Source: Pseudobdellovibrionaceae bacterium (lineage in GTDB: Bacteria; Bdellovibrionota; Bdellovibrionia; Bdellovibrionales; UBA1609). Taken from it: DNA of 64,000 bases. The translations under genes were made by a program, and so were the position numbers. The notes beneath the pieces are model-generated. The model was not told the origin of the DNA. It saw only the letters and a list, made by a program, of their open reading frames with translations, and made no database searches. Shown in pieces: positions 22,066 through 46,308 of this stretch. Each line of letters begins with the position of its first letter. Position 1 is the stretch's first letter. The stretch is taken from contig JAUVAX010000005.1 in assembly GCA_030591685.1 (NCBI GenBank), forward strand, positions 1 through 64,000. The letters run 5' to 3'.

Positions 22066-22108
22066 GTCCTTTAGCAAGGTGTTATAGTCCTTAATTGTTT
22101 AATTTACG
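22030..22108 (+). repeat. Imperfect direct repeat, copy B
   Basis: Counterpart of 21076-21148. It brackets the acetyltransferase gene on its upstream side and contains the last two codons and stop of the minus-strand lyase-like gene in its identical 18-nt block (22091-22108). Confidence 0.75.
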
Positions 22109-22926
22109 AGACTGAGCCCCATATATACATCGTCAAAATACAATGTACGTTCGACAACATTGGGGTTTACATCATTGCCATTTTTCCATCCACTTTTGTA
22201 CATGCCAAATTTCCAATAAATATTTTGATCAGGCCTCATGTTTGAAATATTAGTGCCCGAAGTAACTAATTCTGTATTTACAAACGCCTCTGTAATACCA
22301 GAATTTGATGACGAAAATAAATGATGAACAGCAATGTTCATCCACTGCCCCTTAGTTTTAGGTATAGTAATGTTATCAATTCCTTGACCCATGATTTCGA
22401 GTTTATCACCAACAGATCTAACAAGAAAAGGCACCCCTGGTGAGTTATGGTCACCATGTAGTTGCCAGATAATTTCATATTCAGAGTCATCAATATAGTC
22501 ATTTGGGAAGTATACGCTTAAAGCCAGCCAAACCTCATCCCCCTCAGAAAAGTACCCAATATTTTGTGGAGACGAATACTCACTCCGCGGCCCGTTTGCA
22601 ACATATGGGTCATCTTTATGCACATAAACCCTAAGCACTCTTTCTCCGGCATGAGGGGCGCTGAACGTTGTACTTAAAAGGTGGTCATCAACGGCGGTTT
22701 GCTTTTGCCACTCAATATTTAAGCCTTCACCATCCTCCTCAAATCCATCATGTAAAATTTCAACAGCATCTGACATAAATTGTTCTAGAAAAACGATAGA
22801 CTCTGAGGATTTAGGCCCTGCTTCATCGACAGCTTTTGGCACTTGCTTTATTGACTCACAGTTTTGATAAACTAAAACAAATGTTAATAAAATTAAAATT
22901 GCAGATATTTTTTTTGTGACCTGAAT
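22099..22926 (-). CDS. Polysaccharide-lyase-like lipoprotein (heparin lyase I family fold), probable AUU start
   Basis: The mature region resembles the Polysacc_lyase (heparin lyase I-like) jelly-roll: RVLRVYVHKDD, RSEYSSP, YEIIWQLHGDHNSPGVPF, GQWMNIAVHH and YWKFGMYKSGW. A GTG at 22842 would omit the export signal. The frame continues upstream through a lipoprotein signal, KKISAILILLTF then VLVYQNC, with Cys in a lipobox like that of the lipoprotein at 851. No ATG, GTG or TTG begins this extension. ATT at 22926 lies 6 nt after AAGGGGG and is the best candidate start. An ATG-to-ATT mutation of a once normal gene is the alternative. Confidence 0.68.
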   Translation of the reverse strand: MQVTKKISAILILLTFVLVYQNCESIKQVPKAVDEAGPKSSESIVFLEQFMSDAVEILHDGFEEDGEGLNIEWQKQTAVDDHLLSTTFSAPHAGERVLRVYVHKDDPYVANGPRSEYSSPQNIGYFSEGDEVWLALSVYFPNDYIDDSEYEIIWQLHGDHNSPGVPFLVRSVGDKLEIMGQGIDNITIPKTKGQWMNIAVHHLFSSSNSGITEAFVNTELVTSGTNISNMRPDQNIYWKFGMYKSGWKNGNDVNPNVVERTLYFDDVYMGLSLVN

Positions 22927-35691: not shown

Positions 35692-36621
35692 CTGATCATC
35701 AATAAAAAAATTTCTGCTTTAATAGCTATTTTTTTATTTACTCTTTTTTTAACCCCCATTTCGTGGGGAGCAAAGGTTTATGGTGTTTTTAAAGTTGTTA
35801 AAGGGACGGTCTTCGTTATTTCTGGTAAAAATGGAAAACGAAAAAGGGCAAAGGTCGGAAAAAGGGTGTTCCCTAAAGATACTATTATTACTAAGAAAAA
35901 CGCTCGAGTTAAAATTGTTATGATTGATGAGAACATTATAAATATTTCGCCAAAATCAAAAATTACAATTGAAAAGTATGAGTATGAGCCGAGTAAAGAT
36001 AAAAAAGAGGTTCTTTTAAATGTTATCTTTGGTAAAATTAGATCTAAAATCAAGCAAAAGTACAATGGTAAATCTTCTAAATACGAAGTTAAAACGAAAA
36101 CAACCGTTGCCGGTGTTCGTGGAACTGACTTTTTACTCACCTATGATCACCAGACGAAGCAAACCACTATTATTACCTTTGAGGGCCAAGTTCAATTTGG
36201 ACGCCTTGGCCTCAATGGAGGAGTCAATAGCAAGGTACTTGTTAGTGTTGGCCAAATGTCCTCTAGTATTACTGGGGCCGCACCCACAAAGCCCGTTCGT
36301 ATTCCTAAGTCTGAACTCAAACAGATCAACCGACAAACACAGCTCAATGAGCCCGACCAGGCTTCAGTGAATGACTCTATGTTAAAAAGAAGAGATGCTC
36401 ATATTGAAGAAGAGCCCAGACTTAATGCTAAAAGGGTGCGTAATCGACACAGCAGGGACCCTGCCTCCTGCGAGGGCAAACGTTGCGACTCCATAATATT
36501 GCCGCCTCCCCCTATGGCGCCAACAACTGGGTCAGGCCTCTACATAAACCAGCCCAATACTATTTGCTCATCACAGCTGTGTGAGAACTTTAAGACCAAT
36601 TTGAATATCGTAATAGAATAA
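35692..36621 (+). CDS. Secreted FecR-domain protein with non-standard start codon
   Basis: The FecR domain spans the middle, with KTKTTVAGVRGTDFLLTY as signature. A GTG at 35866 would begin inside the domain. The frame stays open upstream and encodes a signal peptide, KKISALIAIFLFTLF then LTPISWGAKVYG, plus the first FecR strands VFKVVKGTVFV. AGAGGAG at 35681-35687 is 4 nt before CTG 35692 and 7 nt before ATC 35695; no ATG, GTG or TTG is available. The C-terminus has a Pro patch and paired cysteines. It is followed by a TPR/beta-barrel gene, a common pairing for FecR surface proteins. Confidence 0.72.
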   Translation: MIINKKISALIAIFLFTLFLTPISWGAKVYGVFKVVKGTVFVISGKNGKRKRAKVGKRVFPKDTIITKKNARVKIVMIDENIINISPKSKITIEKYEYEPSKDKKEVLLNVIFGKIRSKIKQKYNGKSSKYEVKTKTTVAGVRGTDFLLTYDHQTKQTTIITFEGQVQFGRLGLNGGVNSKVLVSVGQMSSSITGAAPTKPVRIPKSELKQINRQTQLNEPDQASVNDSMLKRRDAHIEEEPRLNAKRVRNRHSRDPASCEGKRCDSIILPPPPMAPTTGSGLYINQPNTICSSQLCENFKTNLNIVIE

Positions 36622-42117: not shown

Positions 42118-43110
42118 TTACCCTGTCTGCAGGGCTAGAACCTGCTCTCGAGTGGCTTGAATTAAAGAAAGCTGGCTTTCCTTAACCTGGCTGGCATCTA
42201 GTACCACAAGACCCCTGAGGGCTTCAGGCTTAACCCCTGAACTCATGAGCCAATCAAAGTACTTTATCTCACCCCAGCGCGAGCGGCTACAGGCCTCCAT
42301 GAGAGGGCTTTCACCAGGGGGAAACAAAGGTTTTGAAGAGCTCATTTGATTTAAGTAATGTATAAATGCATGTCCATCCATATCGGACCAATAAAAAACA
42401 CTTCGGTCGTAGAGCCTCTGTGCCGACTCAGGGATCAAGGTCCTTGCCCCCTCCGGCAAATGGGCCTCAAAATGCTTTACCGCCGCCTCATCCTCTTGAA
42501 GTTTTTTATTAAATCCGCTGACTATAGCTGTGAGGTCTTCTTCTGTCCAGGTGAGTCCCCCTGAAATTAAATCCGGAACTCTCGCCCTTAAACCCGAAAT
42601 AACAACACAGTACTGACGACTTAACTGTAATATTTGCACATGCATTGGGCCTGGTGATTTTTCAAACCCAGCACTTAAAAACCTATTATGAGAGATCCGA
42701 AGGGAGAATACTTTTTTTTCTCCTAAAAGCCCTTCAAGCCTTTCAACATCATGACAGACCCCCAGCAAAGGGTCGTCATCACTGTATAAGCAAAATAAAT
42801 CCTCTTTGCCGAGGCTGTTTGTAAAACTCTCGGAGTCTTTGAGTAACTCTTTAGGTTTTGAAATGACTTGGTAACCGTTTATACTTAACTGCTTCATTGG
42901 ACGGCTTATAAAAGGCGATAGGGCCTCTAAATAAAAAGCCTTTTTTTTATGTGGAAACTGCTGAGTTAAACCAATACAAACTTCTGTGAGTGCGTGATGT
43001 AGGCCACGATATACTTTAACTGAAGCCACTGAAGTATCTACTTGCAAATACTCTGCAATTTTTTTATTAATCCATGGCCAGCTAGAACTTGTATTTAAAT
43101 CTAATTTAAT
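42118..43110 (-). CDS. Conserved-looking protein of unknown function after carB, probable AUU start
   Basis: The protein is about 330 residues and cytosolic-looking; no named family is recognised. The frame is open from just after the carB stop. Starting at TTG 43047 would discard IKLDLNTSSSWPWINKKIAEY, which reads like real protein. ATT at 43110 lies 6 nt after AAAGGGA and 15 nt past carB, so it is the likely start. The C-terminal half includes DLISGGLTWTEEDL and PLMEACSRSRWGEIKYFDW. As last gene of pyrB-carA-X-carB-Y it may relate to pyrimidine or arginine supply, but nothing in it shows an enzymatic role. Confidence 0.6.
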   Translation of the reverse strand: MKLDLNTSSSWPWINKKIAEYLQVDTSVASVKVYRGLHHALTEVCIGLTQQFPHKKKAFYLEALSPFISRPMKQLSINGYQVISKPKELLKDSESFTNSLGKEDLFCLYSDDDPLLGVCHDVERLEGLLGEKKVFSLRISHNRFLSAGFEKSPGPMHVQILQLSRQYCVVISGLRARVPDLISGGLTWTEEDLTAIVSGFNKKLQEDEAAVKHFEAHLPEGARTLIPESAQRLYDRSVFYWSDMDGHAFIHYLNQMSSSKPLFPPGESPLMEACSRSRWGEIKYFDWLMSSGVKPEALRGLVVLDASQVKESQLSLIQATREQVLALQTG

Positions 43111-43125
43111 TGTACATCCCTTTTT

Positions 43126-46100
43126 TTAATTAAGCCCCAGAGGGGAGACCTCAAAAATTGGCTTAAGACTATTTTTCTTTAAAGCTTCAATAACCTGAAT
43201 GGCCGCATCACTTTCTGTAAAACAAGGGATCGAATAATCAACACAACTTCGGCGGATTGTAAAACTAGCCTCTACAGCCTCTCGACCTGAGGTCGTGTTA
43301 ATAACCATATTGACCTTTCCTGACCGTATACGATCTACGCAATGAGGCCGACCTTGAGACACTTTTTTTACAGCTAGTACTTCAAACCCCTGATCAATTA
43401 AAAATTTAGCCGTACCACCTGTGGCTGAAAGTGAAAACCCTAAATCAACTAAATCTTGAGCTACATTTAATAACTCTAACTTATCTTTTTCGCGAAGAGA
43501 TAAAAACACCTCTCCTTTTTCAGGTAAATTAACGTGGGATGAAATAAGGGCCTTTAAAATAGCCTCAGCATAGGTCTTACCTCGGCCCATGCTCTCGCCG
43601 GTCGACTTCATCTCAGGGCCAAGAATAGAGTCGGCCTCAGCAAATTTTTTAAACGGAAACACAACGCCCTTAACACAAATTGTGTCGAGTTTTCTCCAGT
43701 CATATTTTTCAGGGTGTACTTCTGAGGACTTTTTACCCAGCATGGCCTGAACTCCAAGGTTCACTAAGGGGACCCCGCCCGCTTTGGCTATAAAGGGGAC
43801 ACTTCTTGAGCTCCTTGGGTTGGCTTCAATCATAAAAATTTCATCGTTTTTTATAGCTAATTGTAGGTTCAAAAAGCCGATGACATCCATTTCTTGGGCC
43901 AACTCACAGCTCATCTTCTGAATCAACTCTGCCACCTCAGGCTTTAACCTTTGTGGGGGTAATACTCCCATGCTGTCGCCACTGTGAACGCCTGCGGCCT
44001 CAATATGCTCGACAATTCCTCCCACAACGACCCAGTCGTCACCTCGAACCAAGTCCACATCGACCTCTAAGGCACGATCTAAAAATTGATCCATTAAGCA
44101 GGGCTGAGTTTTTGACATCATGTTGCCGTTACGCTCAAAGTAGGATTTTAAATCGGTCTCGTCCTCTATGATCTCCATGCACTGCCCCCCTAAAACATAC
44201 GAAGGCCTGCACAGTAAGGGAAAGTCGACCACGTTACAGGCCTCTTTAGCCATTTCGTAATCATAAGCCATAGCTGCTTTAGGGATTTTAAATTTTAATT
44301 TTTTACACAACTCAATAAATTGACCGCGATCCTCAGCTAAATCCATGGACTCTATAGTGGACCCCAACATTTTGTAACCAGCGTTGACCAAACTAGAGGC
44401 CAGCAAAATGGGCGTTTGCCCCCCGAGCTGAGAAACAAATCCCTCAGGGTTCACATGACGGAATACCTCAAGTACGTGCTCTGAGGTTAATGGTTCAAAA
44501 TACAGTTCATTAGCGGTATCGTAATCTGTCGATACTGTTTCAGGGTTAGAGTTCACCATAATGACATGTTTGCCAAAGGACTGAAACTCTTTAACAGAAC
44601 GAACACAGCTATAATCAAACTCAATCCCCTGACCAATTCGGTTAGGCCCACTGCCTAAAACTACAACCTGTGGTTTTTCAATATGGCGAGGGGCACAAGA
44701 AGACCAGTAGGTTGAATAAAAATAAGGGGTCTGCGAAGCAAACTCACCAGAACATGTATCTACCTGCAGATAACTCGGAAAAATTTTATTTTCACTACGG
44801 TAGGCTGATACTGATTGAGCGGGCAAATTTTTTAAAACCTCAATACGACAATCTGAAAAGCCAAGTCGCTTTGCTTTTATTATAAGTTCGGGGCTCAGCT
44901 CTGAGGCCTTTAAATCACTTTCAAATTTTGAGATTTCTTGAATTTGTTCTAAAAACCATGGAGTAATGGCTGTTATTTCAAAAATTTCGTCGATAGTTTT
45001 GTTCTCTCTAAAGGCCTGAAACAAATGAAATATACGCTCACTATTGGGTATGGAAACCTTGCTTTCATCATAAATCACCTCAGCAATGCCCTGTGGAGAC
45101 ATTTCTAACGACAAGAGAGCTTTCATAAAAGATTCTTTAAAGGTTCGCCCAATCCCCATGACTTCACCGACGGACTTCATTTGAATAGAAAGAATATCCT
45201 TGGCCCCATGAAATTTTTTAAATGCAAATCGAGGTATTTTAGTCACCACATAATCTAAGGCCGGCTCAAAACATGCCGGAGTTGATTTAGTAATATCATT
45301 TTGAATTTCATCTAAGTGGTAGCCTATCGCCAGAAGTGCAGCAATTTTTGCTATGGGAAACCCAGTTGCTTTGCTGGCCAATGCTGAGGATCGACTCACT
45401 CGAGGATTCATTTCAATAACAATGCGATCCCCCGTTTTAGGGCAAACAGCAAATTGTACATTGGCGCCGCCTGTTTCAATGCCTACTTTTTCAATGATGG
45501 CTTTCGCCTCCATTCGCATTTCTTGGTATTCATGGTCAGTGAGAGTCTGTTGAGGGGCAACAGTAATACTATCCCCTGTGTGAACTCCGCAAGGGTCAAG
45601 GTTCTCAATAGAGCAAACGACAACAAAAGTCCCCGCTCGGTCGCGCATGACTTCAAGTTCGTACTCTTTCCACCCTAAAATACTCTCTTCAACCAAAACC
45701 TCTGAGGTGGGGCTTGCGTGTAAGGCTTGAGCCAACTTAACCTTATACTCTTCAGTTGAGTAGGCGATGCCACCACCACCGCCACCTAAAGTGTAGTTTG
45801 GCCTCAAAATTATGGGAAAGCCGATGTCGTCCACAACACCTAGGCCTTGTTCAAAACTTTTTACAATTTCACTCTTAGGGTACTTGGCACCCAGGTCGTC
45901 TAAAATTTTACGAAACTTATCTCTGTCCTCAGCCCTTTGAATCACCTCAGAGGTGGCCCCTAGCATTTTGACCCCTAGGCGCTCTAGTACCCCTGACTCT
46001 TCAAGCTCTATACCTAAGTTTAAAGCCGTTTGACCTCCGAGAGTTGGGATTAAAGCATCGGGCTTTTCTTTTTCTAGGATTTTTTCTAAGAAGTTTTTTT

Positions 46101-46308
46101 TAAGAGGCTCTATGTAAACCTTTGTCGCTATATCTACGTCGGTCATAATTGTAGCGGGGTTAGAGTTAACTAAAATAACCTCCAGCCCTTCACTCATTAA
46201 AGCCTTACAGGCCTGTGTGCCCGAATAGTCAAATTCACAGGCCTGACCAATTTGAATAGGACCGCTTCCTAGGATTAAGACTTTTTTTATATTTTCTCTC
46301 TGAGGCAT
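43126..46308 (-). CDS. carB: Carbamoyl phosphate synthase, large subunit
   Basis: It makes carbamoyl phosphate from bicarbonate, ammonia and two ATP. The 1060-residue chain shows the internal duplication: each half begins with a nucleotide-fold ([20 protein letters not shown] and [19 protein letters not shown]) followed by an ATP-grasp domain with [18 protein letters not shown] or [18 protein letters not shown]. The C-terminal MGS-like allosteric domain lies at about 930-1060. Normal length is about 1070. It is separated from carA by a small extra gene. Confidence 0.97.

Follow-up and report, generated by a model that had tools for sequence, protein, structure and literature searches.

infC, the gene for IF3, starts at AUU, AUC or AUA (ATT, ATC or ATA, here ATH) and is autoregulated through IF3, and this codon class is conserved across bacteria. 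Such starts are also known from pcnB of E. coli, where an AUU start goes with limited expression (Binns and Masters 2002, as cited in PMC13009471), and from cvfC1 (AUU), ccpN (AUA) and citZ (AUA) of S. aureus, in which, in poor medium, AUU and AUA starts reached about 10% of the expression from AUG (PMC13009471). Weak pairing at the third position, AUU/CAU included, is discriminated against by IF3 (PMC10158994), and in E. coli translation from non-canonical starts is inhibited when IF3 is raised (PMC2268962).

Three genes in a stretch of 64,000 nucleotides from a Pseudobdellovibrionaceae bacterium (hereafter the window) very probably begin at AUU or AUC instead of AUG. Two of these starts are supported by orthologues and the third by signal-peptide anatomy. 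The combination of a Shine-Dalgarno sequence and AUU is that of infC, and infC itself apparently uses this codon class here and in most relatives read; none of the three genes, however, encodes IF3, and in relatives genes 1 and 3 start conventionally. As with pcnB, an isolated AUU start is found in a gene other than that of an initiation factor, but there is no homology to pcnB, and limited expression, shown for pcnB according to the citing source, is only predicted for the three genes. S. aureus likewise has a few ATH starts in its genome. The S. aureus starts have an extended Shine-Dalgarno and were shown by ribosome profiling and reporters, whereas those of the window were assigned from sequence, and the starts of cvfC1 and ccpN are conserved between species, unlike those of the three window genes.

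Start codon of the gene downstream of carB

The window lies on contig 93 of a genome of 2.66 Mb in 98 contigs; among named relatives, the closest are metagenome-assembled Bdellovibrionales bacteria. The features around gene 1 were as follows.

43126-46308, minus strand: carB, carbamoyl-phosphate synthase large subunit (NF003671, 1452 bits)
43118-43125, minus strand: Shine-Dalgarno-like AAAAAGGG upstream of the gene 1 ATT (from sequence; AAGG match, aligned spacing 5)
43108-43110, minus strand: ATT, very probable start codon of gene 1, aligned with ATG, GTG or TTG of orthologues
42118-43110, minus strand: gene 1, conserved protein of 330 codons (from orthologues; family unnamed)

carB ends with TAA at 43128-43126, with 15 nt between its end and the ATT, and the minus strand continues after this stop as AAAAAGGGATGTACA ATT AAA TTA GAT. 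The ATT is in the frame of carB, and this frame is open up to the carB TAA. The initial annotation had proposed an AUU start from the open upstream frame, in which TTG 43047-43045 is the first ATG, GTG or TTG, and from the context AAAGGGA, 6 nt, ATT; both descriptions agreed with the sequence as read. The Shine-Dalgarno (AAAGGG) is moderate in strength, and weak folding of the start region is possible (-7.8 kcal/mol). Orthologues of gene 1 were sought in 59 related genomes (best identity 36%) and their 5' ends were read.

Window: ATT-AAA-TTA-GAT
L005 and L016: ATG-AGG-ATT-GAT
L015: ATG-AGA-CTG-GAT
L006: GTG-CGT-TTG-GAT
L011: TTG-CAG-ATA-CAT
L164: ATG-CAT-ATA-GAT
L017: ATG-AAA-ATC-GCT
L028 (same locus as L003): GTG-CAG-GTT-GAC
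L029 (same locus as L004): ATG-CAT-ATC-GAC

The codon at exactly the position of ATT 43110-43108 was ATG in L005, L015, L016, L017, L164 and L029, GTG in L006 and L028 and TTG in L011. Because the orthologues begin conventionally at this very position, the ATT was assigned as the start of gene 1, in agreement with the earlier proposal. All orthologue starts were upstream of TTG 43047. N-termini from the same family and order read MRID, MRLD and VRLD against I-KLD in the window, and residues 4 (D) and 11 (W) were invariant in a three-way alignment.

Automatic annotation would place the starts at the first conventional codons (TTG 43047, GTG 22842 and GTG 35866), as does the program-made list of open reading frames. 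Starts at these codons are very unlikely, as they would remove the conserved N-terminal stretch from gene 1, the lipoprotein signal from gene 2, and the signal peptide and part of the domain from gene 3. Gene 1 might also be reached from ATG 43117 (ATG TAC AAT TAA), 7 nt upstream in another frame, if ribosomes shifted frame at its stop, which overlaps the ATT, to give MYNKLDL. Such a route is highly improbable: the Shine-Dalgarno abuts ATG 43117 with zero spacer, the orthologues begin M-x-[LIV]-D with no added residues, and no known slippery site was seen.

No Pfam or NCBIfam match was obtained for gene 1. The PDB fold matches of its AlphaFold model (mean pLDDT 59.7) were cysteine desulfurases and aminotransferases (best E 2.4e-9), which weakly suggests a fold similar to the PLP-transferases (aminotransferase type I). 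An SLRxSH motif was noticed in gene 1 and is common to its two nearest relatives. Its His may stand where the PLP lysine (SxSK) would be, and gene 1 possibly encodes a pseudoenzyme.

In relatives, gene 1 is located directly after nuoG-nuoI or near it, the place occupied by carB in the window; synteny of carB and gene 1 was expected in relatives and was not found among those read. The genes downstream of gene 1 (flippase, mgtE and recO) are the same in relatives and window, so that, of the genomes read, only this one has the carB junction. The initiation region of gene 1 may thus have been rebuilt by a rearrangement at this junction. As in the window, match coordinates place the FecR gene (gene 3) 4-10 kb from gene 1 in several relatives. 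Both genes would therefore come from an old neighbourhood, so that the start-codon change would be later than the split from those relatives.

Start codons of the lipoprotein and FecR-domain genes

The other two genes are located on opposite strands.

22924-22926, minus strand: ATT, very probable start codon of gene 2 (Shine-Dalgarno AAGGGGG, 6 nt, ATT; signal peptide IQVTKKISAILILLTFVLVYQNC before the first GTG)
22099-22926, minus strand: gene 2, polysaccharide-lyase-like lipoprotein (PF14099 Polysacc_lyase, E 3e-23)
35695-35697, plus strand: ATC, very probable start codon of gene 3 (Shine-Dalgarno AGAGGAG, 7 nt, ATC; aligned with ATG of L093)
35695-36621, plus strand: gene 3, FecR-domain exported protein (PF04773, E 2.4e-14; orthologues in many relatives)

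The minus strand at 22926 reads AAATAAGGGGGCTGGTT-ATT, i.e. AAGGGGG-CTGGTT-ATT, and the good Shine-Dalgarno followed by ATT that had been annotated here was present. A lipoprotein signal with the lipobox LVYQNC at its end precedes the first conventional start (GTG 22842), and an upstream start is needed for this signal. Gene 2 had no orthologue in the 59 relatives, and a search of 369 genomes of the phylum gave no full-length relative and a single partial, weak match. Since an orthologue was lacking, the case for gene 2 is that of its signal-peptide anatomy. Immediately before gene 2 a consensus promoter was also suspected but rejected, as the sequence there is TGATACAAT, without TGNTATAAT.

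For gene 3, a Shine-Dalgarno followed by ATC had been annotated at 35692-35697. The codons there are CTG (35692-35694) and ATC (35695-35697), in the context AGAGGAG-CTCACTG-ATC. CTG 35692 was rejected because it is too near the Shine-Dalgarno, and the orthologue ATG matches ATC 35695: L093 reads ATG ACC AAT CGT AAA ATT TCA against ATC ATC AAT AAA AAA ATT TCT in the window (M-TNRKIS against I-INKKIS). Better spacing and this alignment identify ATC 35695 as the start. In the other readable orthologues ATG, GTG or TTG was found immediately upstream of the signal peptide, which in the window lies upstream of the first conventional start (GTG 35866).

None of the three genes has an in-frame ATG, GTG or TTG that gives the full conserved protein, all have a Shine-Dalgarno at normal spacing (aligned spacing 5-6), and the codon-usage signal of each extends to about two codons from the ATH codon. 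Conventional starts of orthologues fall on the ATH codon in genes 1 and 3, an agreement that goes beyond chance.

Occurrence of ATH starts in the genome and its relatives

infC of the window's genome was found to read AAGGAG-TTTTGTT-ATT, with no ATG, GTG or TTG for 30 codons. Of the 30 relatives examined, most had ATT, ATC or ATA as the apparent infC start, and a few had ATG or TTG candidates or were unreadable. In the relative G009, prmA (L083:16005-16901) reads AAGGAG-AGCTT-ATT; no ATG occurs until about codon 90, and the Pfam PrmA profile matches from near the ATT, its position 12 corresponding to residue 13 counted from that codon. Judging from infC and prmA, ribosomes in this group apparently initiate at ATH codons in a small number of genes.

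The frequency of such starts was estimated in 0.90 Mb of the window's genome (595 genes, simple codon-usage caller). Genes whose coding signal began 12 or more codons ahead of any conventional start were flagged and read by eye. Candidates were infC and the three window genes, and the 548 sampled genes outside the window gave infC only. One clear ATH case, prmA (ATT), was found among 621 genes of five relatives, and the frequencies (3/594 against 1/621) showed no difference (p=0.36). The true rate may be higher, because the screen is insensitive to an ATH codon closely followed by ATG.

Several other flagged genes were fragments or interrupted genes. A lipoprotein-like gene in L046 near 9257 (minus strand) contains an in-frame stop (VGF*NC), and a threonine-dehydratase-like gene (L040:276-1125) and a histidine-kinase-like gene (L039:2637-3126) are apparently interrupted in the same way. 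These look like pseudogenes or assembly errors. With a genome in 98 contigs and these few sampled genes apparently broken by stops (L039, L040, L046), the three ATH codons might themselves be errors of assembly or sequencing for true ATG codons. This is unlikely, since three errors at the third base of start codons require a rate far above that of the few broken genes in 371; by a rough estimate of our own (about 1e-4 per base) some 0.04 start hits are expected. The infC ATT, moreover, fits a pattern conserved in relatives.

Shine-Dalgarno enrichment around gene starts was observed for ATG, GTG and TTG, and overall none was seen for ATT, ATC and ATA. When only genes without a well-placed conventional start were compared, a Shine-Dalgarno match of at least 5 bases was found for 6 of 113 ATT, ATC or ATA codons (5 genes) against 16 of 1018 other codons (p=0.017), a modest excess by Shine-Dalgarno context alone. 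Relaxed start selection in the lineage, suggested in the initial annotation, did not hold up against the low count (infC and 3/595 genes), the lack of bulk enrichment and the conventional starts in orthologues. IF3 looked ordinary, its alignment to IF3 chains of solved structure showing nothing unusual. The search for an altered initiator tRNA gave none: one ordinary CAT initiator-type tRNA was found, and in a search by exact pattern no other tRNA carried the initiator pattern GGGCTNNNAACCC. The 16S gene, looked for in order to read the anti-Shine-Dalgarno, was absent from the assembly. The three genes are isolated cases, with no sign of lineage-wide relaxed start rules.

Compared with the remainder of the sample, clustering of the three starts in one window gave p=0.0005, a post hoc value because the window was chosen for the three cases; with the pooled rate, one such window would be expected in about 8% of genomes of this kind. 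It is very unlikely that the three ATH starts, which lie within some 20 kb of each other, mark a small set of genes kept in this species at low, IF3-dependent expression and are not a coincidence.

Proposed initiation and expression

The explanation considered highly likely is that the three genes are intact and start at AUU (two) or AUC (one), the codon being positioned by the Shine-Dalgarno and translation being IF3-sensitive and of low yield. The Shine-Dalgarno at normal spacing would position the 30S subunit on the ATH codon. The ordinary initiator tRNA (anticodon CAU) would read AUU or AUC by a third-position mismatch that IF3 penalises, and the product would therefore still start with formyl-methionine, at roughly one-tenth of the AUG rate. 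Gene 1 may gain from ribosomes terminating on carB, 15 nt upstream. Given the published low yield from AUU and AUA and the discrimination by IF3, weak, IF3-sensitive translation of the three genes is expected by analogy with infC, pcnB, ccpN and cvfC1, and they would respond to the IF3 level like infC. The "deliberate low expression" of the initial annotation is possible.

Separate mutations of ancestral conventional starts in this lineage are the probable origin of the ATH codons, and in gene 1 the change would coincide with the rearrangement that placed carB instead of nuoI just upstream. The same codons would be seen if the starts had recently been lost to no purpose, the genes being hypomorphs, or pseudogenes at an early stage, under drift in this strain; only the reason for the codons differs. 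The relatives have ATG, GTG or TTG, gene 1 lies at a rearrangement junction with carB in place of their nuoI, and no ATH codon was found for the three genes in any relative read (one genome of the genus in the comparison). Conservation of the infC type was absent, the readable starts of relatives being ATG, GTG or TTG for genes 1 and 3. Purposeless loss is a serious possibility, though it falls somewhat short of probable, as against it all three frames are intact and the Shine-Dalgarno sequences well placed.

Implications for annotation

Gene finders usually accept only ATG, GTG and TTG. Starts of this kind are therefore mis-annotated, and signal peptides and conserved N-termini are lost. With conventional starts, two of the three proteins would be mistaken for cytosolic ones. 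The three genes are new examples of ATH starts outside infC in relatives of Bdellovibrio, ordinary in kind and useful for annotation. Comparison of orthologues can reveal such starts, which occur in roughly 0.2-0.5% of genes.
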